64,000 nt of DNA, from the NCBI GenBank assembly GCA_033344895.1, contig JAWPMN010000001.1:992001-1056000 (forward strand), written 5' to 3'. A model generated the notes under the pieces. The model did not search any database and was not told the origin of the DNA. It saw nothing but the letters and a program-made list of their open reading frames with translations. Positions 23,661-29,994 of the stretch are shown here, piece after piece (positions within the stretch are counted from its first letter, which is position 1; every line of letters begins with the position of its first letter). The position numbers were made by a program, and so were the translations under genes. Source of the DNA: Alphaproteobacteria bacterium. GTDB taxonomy: Bacteria; Pseudomonadota; Alphaproteobacteria; UBA8366; Aestuariispiraceae.

Positions 23661-23746
23661 GTCATCGCAGGATGTAGCCTATGCGGACCGGATGCGCTAC
23701 AGGTTCCGAAAGTTCAAGTCCTTACAACCGGCCGGAAGGGTTCTTC

Positions 23747-24667
23747 ATGGCGCCGTCGATCGAAAAAGTCACCCTGGGAACGCGTGGATCGCCCTTGGCG
23801 ATGCGCCAGACGGAGGAGGTCCGGGACCGGCTGATCGCAGCCCATCCCGGCCTGCAGGTCGAGATCGCCGAGATCAAGGTGGTCGGCGATCAGATTCAGG
23901 ACCGTCCCCTCGCGGAAGTTGGCGGCAAGGGCCTGTTCACCAAGGAGCTGGACCGCGCGGTCATGGACGGACGGTGCGACGCCGCCGTCCATTCAATGAA
24001 GGATGTGGAAACCTGGCTGTCAGAGGGAATCTCCCTGACCTGCATCCTGGAACGCGAGGATGTACGAGACGCCTTTCTGAGCCCCGTCGCGCGTTCTATC
24101 GCGGACCTGCCGGTCGGCGCCCGCGTCGGTTCCGCGTCGCTTCGGCGCAAGGCCCAGATCCTGGCCACGCGCCCCGATCTGGAGGTCGTGCTTTTCCGGG
24201 GCAACGTTCAGACCCGACTGCGCAAGCTTGAGGAACGGGTTGCCGATGCCACTCTGCTGGCGATGGCCGGATTGAACCGTCTGGGCATGGCCGACGTCGC
24301 AACCACGGCCCTGGAGCCGGAGGAGATGCTGCCCGCCGTTGCCCAGGGCGCCGTCGGCATTACGATTGCCACGGACAATGCAGATCTGGCGGCACTCCTG
24401 GCGCCGCTCAACCATGCGGAGACCGCCCTTCGCGTGCATGCCGAGCGCGGCTTTCTGGATGTCCTGGATGGAACCTGCCACACCCCGATCGCCGGCCTGG
24501 CGGAACTGAACGGCGATACGATTCGGTTCCGGGGCCTTGTCGCCCGCGAGGACGGCACGAGGGTGTTGACCGTCGAACGGTCCGGCGCGGCTGCAGACGC
24601 CGAAAGTCTGGCACGGGATGCCGCGGCCGAACTGCGGGCTGAAATGGGCGAGACCTTCTTTGACTGA
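23747..24667 (+). CDS. hemC: Hydroxymethylbilane synthase (porphobilinogen deaminase)
   Basis: 306 aa. Polymerises four porphobilinogens to hydroxymethylbilane in heme synthesis. LGTRGSPLAMRQTEEV, DRPLAEVGGKGLFTKELD, CDAAVHSMKDVET and VGSASLRRKAQIL line the active site. LDGTCHTPIAG holds the Cys (about residue 244) that carries the dipyrromethane cofactor. The ATG at 23747 follows GGAAGGG. The next gene, hemD, begins inside its last codons. Confidence 0.97.
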   Translation: MAPSIEKVTLGTRGSPLAMRQTEEVRDRLIAAHPGLQVEIAEIKVVGDQIQDRPLAEVGGKGLFTKELDRAVMDGRCDAAVHSMKDVETWLSEGISLTCILEREDVRDAFLSPVARSIADLPVGARVGSASLRRKAQILATRPDLEVVLFRGNVQTRLRKLEERVADATLLAMAGLNRLGMADVATTALEPEEMLPAVAQGAVGITIATDNADLAALLAPLNHAETALRVHAERGFLDVLDGTCHTPIAGLAELNGDTIRFRGLVAREDGTRVLTVERSGAAADAESLARDAAAELRAEMGETFFD

Positions 24668-27050
24668 TACCAACGGCCACGCCCCCGCCCTCGCCCCTCT
24701 TGTGCTGATTACACGGCCGGCCGAAGACGCCGCGCCGCTGCTGGATGCGATCCGGGCCATCGGACTGGATGGCATGGTTGAGCCGATGCTTCGGATAGAA
24801 CCGCGGGCGGACGCCCGGATCGACATCGACGATTGCCGGGCGCTGCTGTTTACATCGGCCAACGGCGTACGTGCGTTTTCAAGATTGTCGACCCGTCGGG
24901 ATCTGCCGGTCATCGCTGTCGGCCCCGCCAGTGCCCTGGCCGCGTCGGAGGCCGGATTCGAGGATGTTGAAGCAGCCGCAGGGGATGTCGACGCCCTGAT
25001 CGAGTCGGTGCAGGCCCGGTTTTCGCCGGGGGAAGCGCCGTTCTTTCATGCAGCCGGTACCGTCACCGCAGGGGACCTCAAAGGGCGCCTGGAGGCCATC
25101 GGATACCGTGTCCGGCGCGAACACCTCTACAATGCCGAACCGGCTACCGGGCTGAGCGATGCGTGCCTGGCGGCCTTCGACAGCGGTCGAATTGCCGCGA
25201 CCACGTTTTTTTCTCCCCGTACCGCCACAGCCTTTGTTAGGCTATTGGAAGAATCAGGGCGTGCGCCCCGTGCGCGTACGGTTTGGGCCATCTGTCTCAG
25301 CGAGGCCGTGGCTGCGGAAGCTCGGGCCATCGAATGGACCGGAACCAAAGTCGCCGAAACCCGGGATACCGCGGCGATAATCGCTGCTCTTGCGGAGACG
25401 GTCGGGCCAGGCGCGACGAGTGTGAACGCGGTCGAATCCGCGACAATGAACAAGGCAGGTGCCATGACGGAAGACAAAACCAAGCCGGACAACGAGACCG
25501 ACGATGCGATCGCCGACGAGGATACGATCGCGGAGCCCGTCGAGGACCTCAATGCCGATGCGGTGATCGAGGCTTTTGGCGGCATTCGACCGATGGCGTC
25601 GAAATTGGACGTCGCCGTCAGCACCGTCCAGGGCTGGAAAACCCGCGGCCACATTCCCGATTCCCGATGGCGCGACATCATCGCCGCCGCCGGTGCCCAT
25701 GACATCGACCTGAGTGCGGCGCTGCCGAAAGACGGTCCGGCCGAGCGGGACGCGGACGACGGCGTGGCGGAGAGCGAGACTCCCTGGTCAGAAGAAGCGA
25801 ACGAGCAGAGCGACGCGGCCGGTTCCGTCGATGCCGCAGCCGGCGACACGGATGGTCACGACATGGCAACGGAACAGAGAATCGATACGGAGGAGAGCGC
25901 GGCACAGCCCACGTCCGAGGACGCCGCTCCGGACTCCCCGCAGGACGAACGCCCGGCGACAGCGTCGCAAGGCGGCGGCAAGCTTGCACTGCTGGTCGGT
26001 GTCGCCGCGATCCTGGCAGTGGTCGCCCGGCCGGTCTGGGGCCCCTACGTCGATCCCCATCTGGCCAAGTACATCCCACAGGGGACATCGGGCAGCGGTG
26101 CGCCGATGGTACCAGCCACTCCAAGTGTCGATCTGTCGGAACTCAATGCCGAGATCGCGGATCTGCGGACCCGACTGCAGTCGGTTGAGGAGCGTCCCGT
26201 CGCCATACAGGGTGTCCCCGGTGAAGACGGCCACGGTGTGGTCTACGGCATGGCGAGCCGCCTGTCCGCGCTCGAAGGCGAGATATCGGAACTGCGCGGT
26301 GCCATCAATTCGGTCAAGGCATCGATCGAACGCGATGACGACACGCGGGCACGCCTGCTGGAACGGTTGGGGGTCATCGAGAGTCTGACAGAACAGGCCA
26401 CCACGGAGGCCGAAAGGGCTATGGCCGGTCTGGCCGGTGTCGAGGCGACCCTGAATCGTCAGGACGATGCCATCGCTGCCCTGGAACGTCGTCCCGCGAT
26501 AGAGGGGGCGGCTCAGGCCGGCCTCGCCCTGGCGGTCGGCGATGTCGAATCCGCCATGGCCGACGGACGCCCCTTCTCAGACGCGCTGCTTCGATTGCAG
26601 GCGCTGGCGGAGAACGACCCCGCGATTGCCGAGGCCGCCGGCTCGCTGGTGCCCTACGCTGCTTCCGGGGTGCCGACGGATGCCGATCTGCTGGCCGCAT
26701 TCCGCCGTGAAGCCCCGGCAATGCAGACCGAGCTGGGCAAAACCGATGGCGATGTCCTGGATACGTTGCTGAACGGCGCTCGGTCACTGGTTTCGGTCCG
26801 TCGCAAGGGCGATGCCCCCGACGCGCCCCCCGTCAGCCGCGCAGAGGCAGCGCTGGCACGCGGCGACCTGACCGGCGCCGTTGCCGCTCTGACGCCGGTT
26901 CGAGATGTCTCCACGACAGTCGATCTCTGGCTCGCCGGCGCAGAAGCCCGACTGGCGGCGGAAGCCGCATTGCGCCACCTCCGCCGAACGGTTGCGGCCG
27001 GCCTGAACGGCGTTACGGACGGCGACAGCAAAGACGGGGACGGCGCATGA
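24660..27050 (+). CDS. hemD: Uroporphyrinogen-III synthase fused to HTH/mitofilin-like membrane protein
   Basis: One uninterrupted 796-aa frame. Residues 1 to about 250 are HemD (LVLITRPAEDAAPLLDAIR, LLFTSANGVRAFS, TFFSPRTATAFVRLL), which closes hydroxymethylbilane to uroporphyrinogen III. After an Asp/Glu-rich linker comes a helix-turn-helix-like segment (about 301-350; FGGIRPMASKLDVAVSTVQG). Then an acidic region, a membrane helix (about 441-460), a coiled coil (about 500-620) and an Ala-rich alpha-helical C-terminus like bacterial mitofilin (COG4223). In relatives the two halves are usually separate genes. The TTG at 24660 overlaps hemC by 8 bp. In-frame ATGs at 25446 and 25464, the latter after AAGGCAGG, could start the second half independently. 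The end overlaps hemY by 4 bp. Confidence 0.85.
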   Translation: MTDTNGHAPALAPLVLITRPAEDAAPLLDAIRAIGLDGMVEPMLRIEPRADARIDIDDCRALLFTSANGVRAFSRLSTRRDLPVIAVGPASALAASEAGFEDVEAAAGDVDALIESVQARFSPGEAPFFHAAGTVTAGDLKGRLEAIGYRVRREHLYNAEPATGLSDACLAAFDSGRIAATTFFSPRTATAFVRLLEESGRAPRARTVWAICLSEAVAAEARAIEWTGTKVAETRDTAAIIAALAETVGPGATSVNAVESATMNKAGAMTEDKTKPDNETDDAIADEDTIAEPVEDLNADAVIEAFGGIRPMASKLDVAVSTVQGWKTRGHIPDSRWRDIIAAAGAHDIDLSAALPKDGPAERDADDGVAESETPWSEEANEQSDAAGSVDAAAGDTDGHDMATEQRIDTEESAAQPTSEDAAPDSPQDERPATASQGGGKLALLVGVAAILAVVARPVWGPYVDPHLAKYIPQGTSGSGAPMVPATPSVDLSELNAEIADLRTRLQSVEERPVAIQGVPGEDGHGVVYGMASRLSALEGEISELRGAINSVKASIERDDDTRARLLERLGVIESLTEQATTEAERAMAGLAGVEATLNRQDDAIAALERRPAIEGAAQAGLALAVGDVESAMADGRPFSDALLRLQALAENDPAIAEAAGSLVPYAASGVPTDADLLAAFRREAPAMQTELGKTDGDVLDTLLNGARSLVSVRRKGDAPDAPPVSRAEAALARGDLTGAVAALTPVRDVSTTVDLWLAGAEARLAAEAALRHLRRTVAAGLNGVTDGDSKDGDGA

Positions 27051-28315
27051 CCTGGCGGGTTCTCTGGTTTCTGATCAAGCTGGGCATCATTGGTGCCCTT
27101 GCGGTGTTCTTTGCGCTGGAGCCCGGTCGCGTCACCTTCGACTGGCAGGGCTGGGTCATCGACATGCCGGTCGGCGTCTTCGCGCTGAGCCTTCTGGTTC
27201 TGGTGCTTTTGTTCGTCTACGGGGAACGAATCCGACAGACCGTATTTCGTTTCCCGGGCCGCTGGCGTGCTCAGCGCAAAGCCATCCGTGAGATGAAGGG
27301 CTATCGCGCCCTGACGCTGGGCATGGTTGCGGTCGCGGCGGGCGACAAGGACGAATCCCGGCGGCAATCACGCCGCGCCAAGGATCTGCTGACCGACGCG
27401 CCCCTGACCAAGCTGCTGCAGGCCCAAAGCGCCCGCCTGTCCGGCGACGATCAGGCCGCTGTGGCCTATTTCGAGGATATGCGCGGCGACCCCGAGGTGG
27501 CGTTCCTCGGACTGCGCGGTCTGATGACCCAGGCTCTGCGTGCCGGGGACAAGGCCCGTGCATTGGAATTGGCCGAGGAAGCACGAAAGCTGCGCCCTGC
27601 CGCCAAATGGGTGTTGCTGGAGCTGCTGGACCTGCAGATCAATGCCGGCCGTTGGGCCAGCGCCCTCAAAACATTGGAGGATGCAGAGCGTACCGGCGCT
27701 CTGCCGCCCGAGGAAGCCGCCCCGGTTCGCGCACGTCTGGCCGTCCGGCAGGCCGAGTTGCTGTCAATTAGAGGCGATGACGGGCCGGCCCTGAAAACGG
27801 CGCAGACCGCGCTGAAGGCCGATCCGGAAAATGCGGAGGCCGTCACCCTGGCCGCAAGCCTGATGGCGCGTGCCGGTAAGGACCGGAAGGCGGAGAAACT
27901 GATCGAGGATGCCTGGCAGAAGGCGCCCGGCCCCCATCTGGCGGCAGCCTATCGGGACCTTGCACCGGAGGGGACAACCGCCCTCGCCCAGGTAAAGCGG
28001 TTTGAAAAACTGCTCAGCCTCGCGCCCGATGACGCGGAAAGCCATATGGCACTGGCCGATGCCAGCCTGGATGCCGAATTGTGGGGTGAAGCCCGGTCGC
28101 ATCTGGCGAAGTCCCTCGACATCGTCGGGGAGCCTGTGCCACCGCGCCTGTGCCGTCTCTGGGCGCGACTGGAAGAATCCGAGCATGGTGACCTGACGGC
28201 GGCGCATGCCTGGCTGATGCGCGCAACGGAGGTTGAAGATTCTCAGGGTCTTACCACGGCCGTCGAACCCCAATCCCATCTGGGCGACCACCGGGATGAC
28301 GGTGTCGTCGTCTGA
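27047..28315 (+). CDS. hemY: HemY-type TPR membrane protein
   Basis: 422 aa. Two N-terminal membrane helices (about 5-22 and 42-63) carry the HemY N-terminal domain (WFLIKLGIIGALAVFFALEPG, FRFPGRWRAQRKAIREMKGYRALTLGM). A long tetratricopeptide-repeat region follows. Encoded at the end of hem operons in proteobacteria but its biochemical role is not settled; it is unrelated to the Gram-positive HemY oxidase. Coupled to the preceding fusion gene by ATGA. The last residues are acidic and probably disordered. Confidence 0.92.
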   Translation: MTWRVLWFLIKLGIIGALAVFFALEPGRVTFDWQGWVIDMPVGVFALSLLVLVLLFVYGERIRQTVFRFPGRWRAQRKAIREMKGYRALTLGMVAVAAGDKDESRRQSRRAKDLLTDAPLTKLLQAQSARLSGDDQAAVAYFEDMRGDPEVAFLGLRGLMTQALRAGDKARALELAEEARKLRPAAKWVLLELLDLQINAGRWASALKTLEDAERTGALPPEEAAPVRARLAVRQAELLSIRGDDGPALKTAQTALKADPENAEAVTLAASLMARAGKDRKAEKLIEDAWQKAPGPHLAAAYRDLAPEGTTALAQVKRFEKLLSLAPDDAESHMALADASLDAELWGEARSHLAKSLDIVGEPVPPRLCRLWARLEESEHGDLTAAHAWLMRATEVEDSQGLTTAVEPQSHLGDHRDDGVVV

Positions 28316-28802: not shown

Positions 28803-29411
28803 CTATCCGTGCGGACGGATATCGCCGGTATCGTGGGCATACAGGTAGTCTTCCACCGCCGATTTCAGCGCGGTCGCAGCCTGGATCGGGATCTTGTAGG
28901 CATGTCCCCCCTGAACCAGACGATTGTCCTGCATGACCCAGAAACTGGGCGTCCGGCCGCGATTGGAGACATGTACCGCCAGCGGCACCGGCGCCCCTGC
29001 CGGATTGCTAAGGGCCAGTCTGACACCGTCTTCTCGGCCTTCGCGAACGATCTCGAACCGCCAACGCTCCTGCCGCAGGACATAGCGCATCGCCTCCTCA
29101 ACCAAAGCCACCGGATCGTCGGCATCGACTTTCGCCAGTTGCTGCGCCACCAGGATTTCCAGGGCCTGTGAGGCGGTCGCGATGTCTTCCCGGTCGATGC
29201 TGAGCGCCGCATTCAGGCAACGAGCCGCAACCTGAGCCAGTTCGTCGCCGTCCAGCGTCGCCGTCATCCCCCAAATCTCCAGATCGTCATCGTCCGGTGA
29301 CCGGCTTCGCGCCGCCTCTATCCGGATCGGAGCGGCATTTGTTGCCCCATCCTTGCCGACGCTGACCAGTACGACCGCATCCCGGTCGGCGACGAATCGA
29401 TAATCTGGCAT
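28803..29411 (-). CDS. Protein of unknown function
   Basis: 202 aa, no membrane segment or signal peptide and no family I recognise. The N-terminus (MPDYRFVADRDAVVLVSVGK) looks like a short beta-rich segment. The middle contains a helix rich in Ala (ALEILVAQQLAKVDADDPVALVEEAMRYVL). The C-terminus has FWVMQDNRLVQGGHAYKIPI. AAAGGAG lies about 10 bases before the ATG, and base composition matches neighbouring genes, so it is likely real. It is divergent from the first XRE regulator across an AT-rich spacer. Confidence 0.65.
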   Translation of the reverse strand: MPDYRFVADRDAVVLVSVGKDGATNAAPIRIEAARSRSPDDDDLEIWGMTATLDGDELAQVAARCLNAALSIDREDIATASQALEILVAQQLAKVDADDPVALVEEAMRYVLRQERWRFEIVREGREDGVRLALSNPAGAPVPLAVHVSNRGRTPSFWVMQDNRLVQGGHAYKIPIQAATALKSAVEDYLYAHDTGDIRPHG

Positions 29412-29643: not shown

Positions 29644-29994
29644 ATGGCGCATCCAGTTGACGTTGCAGTAGGGAATCGCGTTCGCGAGTTGCGTACACGT
29701 GCCGGACTGTCTCAGACGGATCTGGGTCTGAAACTCGGTGTCAGTTTCCAACAGGTTCAGAAGTATGAAAAGGGCGTCAACCGAATGGGGGCGAGCCGCC
29801 TCATTCAGATTTGCGAAGCCCTTAAAGTGTCGGTGAACGACATTTTCGACGGCATTGCGTCCGTCACGGATGCCGCTGACAAGCCTTTGGCCGATCCGGA
29901 GGCAATGCGGATCGCGCGGGATATCCAGCGGATCGAGAACGAGGGTATGCGGACGGCGGTCAAACAGCTCGTCCGGACCATGTCCCGTCTGTAA
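29644..29994 (+). CDS. XRE-family transcriptional regulator, PraR/PhrR-like (1)
   Basis: 116 aa. The N-terminal Cro/CI helix-turn-helix (about 10-65) contains RTRAGLSQTDLGLKLGVSFQ and QVQKYEKGVNRMGASRL, close to rhizobial PraR/PhrR repressors. The tail (ADPEAMRIARDIQRIENEGM) is a short helical domain. The ATG follows AGAGGG. PraR in Rhizobium represses quorum-sensing genes; here a LuxI/LuxR-like pair lies 1-2 kb downstream, which suggests a similar role (inference). It is convergent with a paralogue. Confidence 0.88.
   Translation: MAHPVDVAVGNRVRELRTRAGLSQTDLGLKLGVSFQQVQKYEKGVNRMGASRLIQICEALKVSVNDIFDGIASVTDAADKPLADPEAMRIARDIQRIENEGMRTAVKQLVRTMSRL

Follow-up and report, generated by a model that had tools for sequence, protein, structure and literature searches.

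A uroporphyrinogen-III synthase–Mic60 fusion with a candidate nested start for free Mic60 recurs in Alphaproteobacteria

Results

Organisation of the locus

The window, that is, the whole stretch of 64,000 nucleotides that was analysed, contains a single open frame on the forward strand that runs from a TTG at 24660 (or from an upstream ATG at 24618) to a TGA at 27048–27050. Its long product (24660–27050, +; TTG start, 796 aa) joins uroporphyrinogen-III synthase (HemD) to a helix-turn-helix (HTH), a transmembrane helix, a coiled coil and a mitofilin domain. A sequence-only reading of this DNA had proposed HemD fused in one frame to an HTH/mitofilin-like membrane protein; the open frame and the domain profile matches bear this out, and the proposed domain order stands as well. 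The stop codon of hemC (23681–24667, +; PF01379, E 8e-76), at 24665–24667, overlaps the start of the fusion frame, and the ATG at 27047 of the following gene, encoding a hemY-type TPR membrane protein (27047–28315, +; PF07219, E 1.5e-22), overlaps the fusion stop (ATGA). Downstream of hemY lie a 202-aa frame (28803–29411, −) with no Pfam match at E 0.001 and, 1.3 kb past hemY, a separate small Cro/C1-type regulator (HTH_3; 29644–29994, +). PADLOC gave no match.

The HemD part is a uroporphyrinogen-III synthase domain (HEM4; 24744–25382, +) matching PF02602 at E 2.3e-35, with 122.2 bits against a cut-off of 27.5. A PDB sequence search with this part gave no match at E 0.001, and in Foldseek the 13 top-ranked PDB matches of its structural model are without exception HemD structures (lowest E 1.5e-11). 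A profile search shows the fusion to carry the sole HemD copy of the genome, so catalytic activity is to be expected of it. HemD is followed by an acidic, variable linker (25383–25553, +; partly of low pLDDT), which cannot be aligned among relatives except around the internal start in the nearest pair. In the AlphaFold model the HemD, HTH and mitofilin parts are confident and confidence is low across much of the linkers; a helix coincides with the predicted membrane span, a hydrophobic stretch at 25977–26048 (+), and long helices then form the coiled-coil region (26133–26489, +).

The linker leads into a Cro-type HTH of 54 residues (carph-isopro; 25554–25715, +; NF046037, 67.2 bits, cut-off 38), the one match to this profile above cut-off in the genome; a second, sub-threshold match lies outside the window (G000:C1:751826-751909; 22.2 bits against the cut-off of 38). 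The core of the HTH model has pLDDT above 90, and its nearest Foldseek matches are phage Cro proteins (Xfaso 1, N15) at probability 1.00, with E values of only 0.027–0.058; weak sequence matches of the HTH to phage Cro-like proteins agree with these fold matches. A PDB sequence search with the Mic60 part likewise returned only a Cro protein (E 0.056). The HTH, with core motifs FGGIRPMA and TVQGWK, is conserved better than the remaining Mic60 and occurs in fused and split genomes alike, with a match in 53 of the 163 that were classified. This domain may bind DNA or, alternatively, dock a protein. RodZ-type membrane proteins carry a cytoplasmic HTH, a single membrane helix and a periplasmic C-terminal part; the fusion resembles them in layout, with its HTH, single membrane helix and C-terminal part beyond the membrane. 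By analogy only, the HTH could bind protein rather than DNA, as in RodZ-type proteins.

The C-terminal mitofilin domain (26520–26969, +; PF09731) scores 27.9 bits on the 528-aa product of an internal start, above the cut-off of 27.4, and 24.6 bits, below it, on the whole fusion. The layout of Mic60, a single membrane helix followed by a coiled coil, is matched, in the hem operon position.

HemX is a membrane protein of the hem operon, and HemD–HemX fusions occur in databases. We rejected HemX as the identity of the membrane part of the fusion, which has no PF04375 match at E 1 in a Pfam scan; the whole genome contains no PF04375 match. In this the window differs from the HemD–HemX arrangement of other Pseudomonadota. 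HemX is present in 25 of 120 sampled Pseudomonadota, 24 of them with HemX frames of 319–528 aa; the single longer frame (G460, 622 aa) is distinct from the HemD frame of that genome (315 aa). A HemD–HemX fusion as a common precedent was also rejected, as none was found in the 25 HemX genomes (HemD frames checked in six of the 25). Passages of PMC7641849 describe the alphaproteobacterial mitofilin homologue as a diverged HemX homologue.

The fusion in the family of the window

The sequence-only reading had pointed to related genomes as the place to look for the fusion, and there it is present. The comparison covered 14 genomes of the family of the window, in 12 of which the junction could be read; all 12 are fused by sequence. 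A further one, G008, is fused too, as shown by a shared 814-aa frame in its table row, and in G002 the contig breaks at the junction. An assembly or sequencing error that removed a stop, for which the same reading had marked the stretch 25400–25460, is vanishingly improbable, and we exclude it: assemblies made independently of one another have the frame open, both in all 12 members of the family that could be read and in other families.

Named relatives of the window include Pacificispira, Marivibrio, Hwanghaeella, Aestuariispira and Curvivirga. A tree built from the concatenated parts (HemD, HTH and mitofilin) has 76 rows, four of 79 named loci having been omitted because they gave no good match to mitofilin. 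In it the window and 11 named relatives form an all-fused clade with support 99/97. A quick tree of the concatenated parts recovered the same clade (support 97, starred), and in a single-gene HemD tree the family was not recovered as a clade. The 11 relatives are 29–71% identical to the window where identity is listed. Three records bear titles foreign to their alphaproteobacterial locus: L061 (Mesoflavibacter sp.), L128 (Mycobacterium sp. KBS0706) and L101 (Anaerolineae bacterium). The first two titles look misassigned, because in the tree L061 joins the window and L128 joins Inquilinus; L101 is absent from the tree.

Fused and split genes across Alphaproteobacteria

We drew 387 Alphaproteobacteria evenly, of which 320 had a match. 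Of these genomes, 149 were classified from sequence: 51 are fused, 29 have the two parts in one frame but interrupted by stops, 67 have them in different frames and 2 show no partner. Fused members occur in 25 of the 61 families of the sequence-classified set. Tables of 125 lower-scoring genomes, overlapping the 149 by four, indicated 13 further fused genomes with a single frame for both matches (G110, G161, G170, G192, G209, G272, G288, G307, G322, G339, G354, G376 and G414); about 50 matching genomes of the draw lie outside this classification. The fusion is therefore found in at least 64 of the 387 drawn Alphaproteobacteria, while others keep separate genes, so that what had been taken for a departure from the usual separate genes proves widespread rather than exceptional. 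Kin genomes added 8 more fused cases, and 166 genomes were classified from sequence overall, 17 of which only the kin search had supplied. Named examples of the fused state are Inquilinus, Tistlia, Ferruginivarius and Rhodovibrio; Azospirillum and Kiloniella are split. The best-scoring named loci (n = 79, from the best 80 of 301 candidates) comprise 40 fused, 35 in frame with stops and 4 out of frame, counts that do not represent a rate because a joint in-frame match ranks higher. In CP030885.1 (L072, L074) the locus occurs at both ends of a single contig, a terminal duplication or an assembly artefact, and G070 shows the same two-end pattern with opposite orientations at one end.

Fused and split states changed 7–8 times among the 76 HTH-type rows of the concatenated and quick trees. 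The HemD-only tree (163 rows) gave 29 changes, a count we set aside in favour of the concatenated HTH-type tree because the HemD-only tree misses the family. State labels cluster: the tree shows 8 changes, whereas 500 shuffles of the labels gave 25.4 on average and never fewer than 18, indicating that the fusion state is inherited, yet has been repeatedly gained or lost. Whole families are uniformly fused (12/12 in f1, 5/5 in f41 and 5/5 in f45). Among 104 split pairs, 34 are in frame, and 22 and 48 are in the two other phases. The proposal that split pairs are broken fusions, which would leave them in frame beyond chance, is unsupported by this proportion of about one third.

These data bear on the origin and benefit of the fusion. 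Where hemD and mic60 lie in frame, as in a third of genomes, loss of the intervening stop may simply be tolerated, so that fusions would arise neutrally; such an origin is compatible with two products. The in-frame share of split pairs, no commoner than chance, and the alternation of fused and split states over the tree agree with this account, whereas the stability of the fusion in the three uniformly fused families and the clustering of state labels speak against it, and on balance we think it rather unlikely.

A probable internal start in the linker

The sequence-only reading had named two in-frame ATGs, at 25446 and 25464, as possible starts of a second product. The latter holds up: it is preceded by the Shine-Dalgarno-like AAGGCAGGT (25452–25460, +), whose predicted duplex with the anti-SD sequence reaches −7.0 kcal/mol, and would open a short product consisting of Mic60 alone (25464–27050, +; 528 aa). 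The former, at −2.4 kcal/mol, has no ribosome site and does not hold up. In L061, the nearest relative of the window, GGCAGGTGCC-ATG is identical, as is the block GGCAGGTGCCATGACGGAAGACAA, and the flanks of the linker differ. Codons around the start are identical between the two in 6 of 6 cases, against 50% overall; this is unexceptional, because identical runs of 7–9 codons occur elsewhere, so synonymous conservation in the pair is only suggestive as support for the start.

Comparison across fused loci argues for the start more strongly than the pair does. The linker holds an in-frame ATG in 40 of 43 distinct fused HTH loci and a GTG in the remaining three, and ATGs are denser in the HemD–HTH linker (0.0252 per residue) than in the linker that follows (0.0069). 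The mean anti-SD pairing energy is −5.99 kcal/mol at 51 linker ATGs and −2.64 at 271 other in-frame ATGs of those frames (p 9e-15). With GTGs included (54 codons) the mean is −5.96, while 1943 codons of these linkers that are not starts average −3.04. The linker starts pair more strongly than the non-start codons in 41 of 43 loci; among representatives below 60% identity, 28 of 30 show this. The mRNA is also less structured at the linker ATG than in its surroundings, by 7.69 kcal/mol (37/38 loci; the best-pairing ATG was chosen where a linker has several), and at 257 other in-frame ATGs the relief is 0.52 kcal/mol, with 136 above zero. An internal start codon is thus conserved together with a ribosome site and open mRNA, as expected of a nested gene, and these comparative signatures lend support to the earlier suspicion of two products from one frame.

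The ATG might instead be the relic of a former mic60 start in a plain fusion that yields one long HemD–Mic60 product. A recent loss of the stop would indeed leave the old start standing, and three fusions (G163, G227 and G247) have no ATG, GTG or TTG between HemD and the membrane helix, so that there the long form must act as Mic60. Under a single product, however, a relic start would be expected to decay, and the linker ATG has been kept: all 12 fused proteins of the clade of the window, down to 29% identity and with unalignable linkers, retain it. Moreover, the signals match or exceed those of split genes, with best-site pairing averaging −6.85 kcal/mol in fused linkers against −4.91 at split HTH-type mic60 starts, and mRNA relief equal to that where split mic60 genes truly start (7.47 kcal/mol; 37/39). 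We therefore judge the relic reading improbable.

Separate proteins could also be released by a protease that cuts the long chain in a disordered linker, the fusion itself being functionless. The acidic, variable linker of partly low predicted confidence would suit this, but no cleavage motif is evident by eye in the aligned linkers, and the recurring element is a nucleotide-level start signature, for which cleavage has no need; we give proteolysis very little weight.

Pairing is weak in some members of the family, at −3.1 kcal/mol in Curvivirga (L073) and −2.7 in G006. Fused loci that lack the HTH also tend towards stronger pairing at the ATG when they have one (21/24, p 2e-4). However, 13 of 37 of them have no ATG before the membrane helix, and three, named above, have no start codon of any kind there, indicating that a second product is not universal.

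Discussion

A model for one frame with two products

Our preferred reading is that the one frame encodes two proteins, a membrane-tethered HemD–Mic60 and a free Mic60, to which we assign a probability of roughly three in four. Ribosomes starting at hemD must run on to the end of mic60, as the sequence has no stop between the two, and HemD would consequently form the cytoplasmic N-terminal part of a protein that crosses the membrane once. Going by the topology of Mic60 in general, the mitofilin domain would lie across the membrane, with HemD and the HTH in the cytoplasm. A second initiation at ATG 25464, supported by the comparison among fused loci, would yield Mic60 alone. The coiled coil of Mic60 probably brings long and short forms together in mixed assemblies, in which case HemD would be attached to some Mic60 molecules and not to others. 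We infer that HemD is anchored at the membrane; the enzyme, which takes over the unstable product of HemC, would be held there, at Mic60 sites beside the products of hemC and hemY.

A fuller version of this model, which we advance tentatively and regard as somewhat short of even odds, is that of a repeatedly evolved two-product gene whose nested start would fix the balance between Mic60 with HemD and Mic60 without it. Through mixed assemblies, tetrapyrrole synthesis would take place at the membrane sites that Mic60 shapes, bacterial forerunners of mitochondrial cristae, and the Cro-like head would add another docking module. Mitochondria inherited Mic60, the core of their cristae-shaping machinery, from Alphaproteobacteria. 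To our knowledge, there is no explanation for the location of Mic60 in a heme operon. For other alphaproteobacterial Mic60 proteins, membrane bending and contact-site activity are reported in passages of PMC12136173; the summaries of alphaproteobacterial Mic60 in membrane shaping in PMC12136173 and PMC12631773 make, in the passages concerned, no mention of a HemD fusion.

Relation to known systems

Nested in-frame starts are known elsewhere, including infB, clpB and cheA of E. coli. What sequence comparison points to here is a recurrent, widespread HemD–Mic60 fusion with an apparently maintained second start. A parallel is found in Haloferax, where, according to PMC11899642, Cas11b starts at an internal methionine inside cas8b. 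In both cases an internal methionine of a longer frame would open a separate, shorter protein; the long frame of cas8b is one protein, whereas the frame in the window joins two genes that are separate in relatives.

The operon itself has a counterpart in PMC7641849, passages of which describe an alphaproteobacterial HemC–HemD–mitofilin homologue–HemY operon with tsaD–gpsA as neighbours. The window shares this gene content and order, and divergent tsaD–gpsA lie next to it, but that description lists HemD and the mitofilin homologue as separate genes, whereas the window has one frame with a nested start. In a literature search that left most subscription papers outside its scope, this was the only paper found to join uroporphyrinogen-III synthase with mitofilin, and no description of a HemD–Mic60 fusion or of its nested start was found.

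Fused lineages with or without a separate Mic60 start offer a natural strain set in which to study how tetrapyrrole synthesis and membrane shaping are connected. If such a frame were annotated simply as uroporphyrinogen-III synthase, its Mic60 part would go unseen, and fused copies could escape surveys of where Mic60 occurs.
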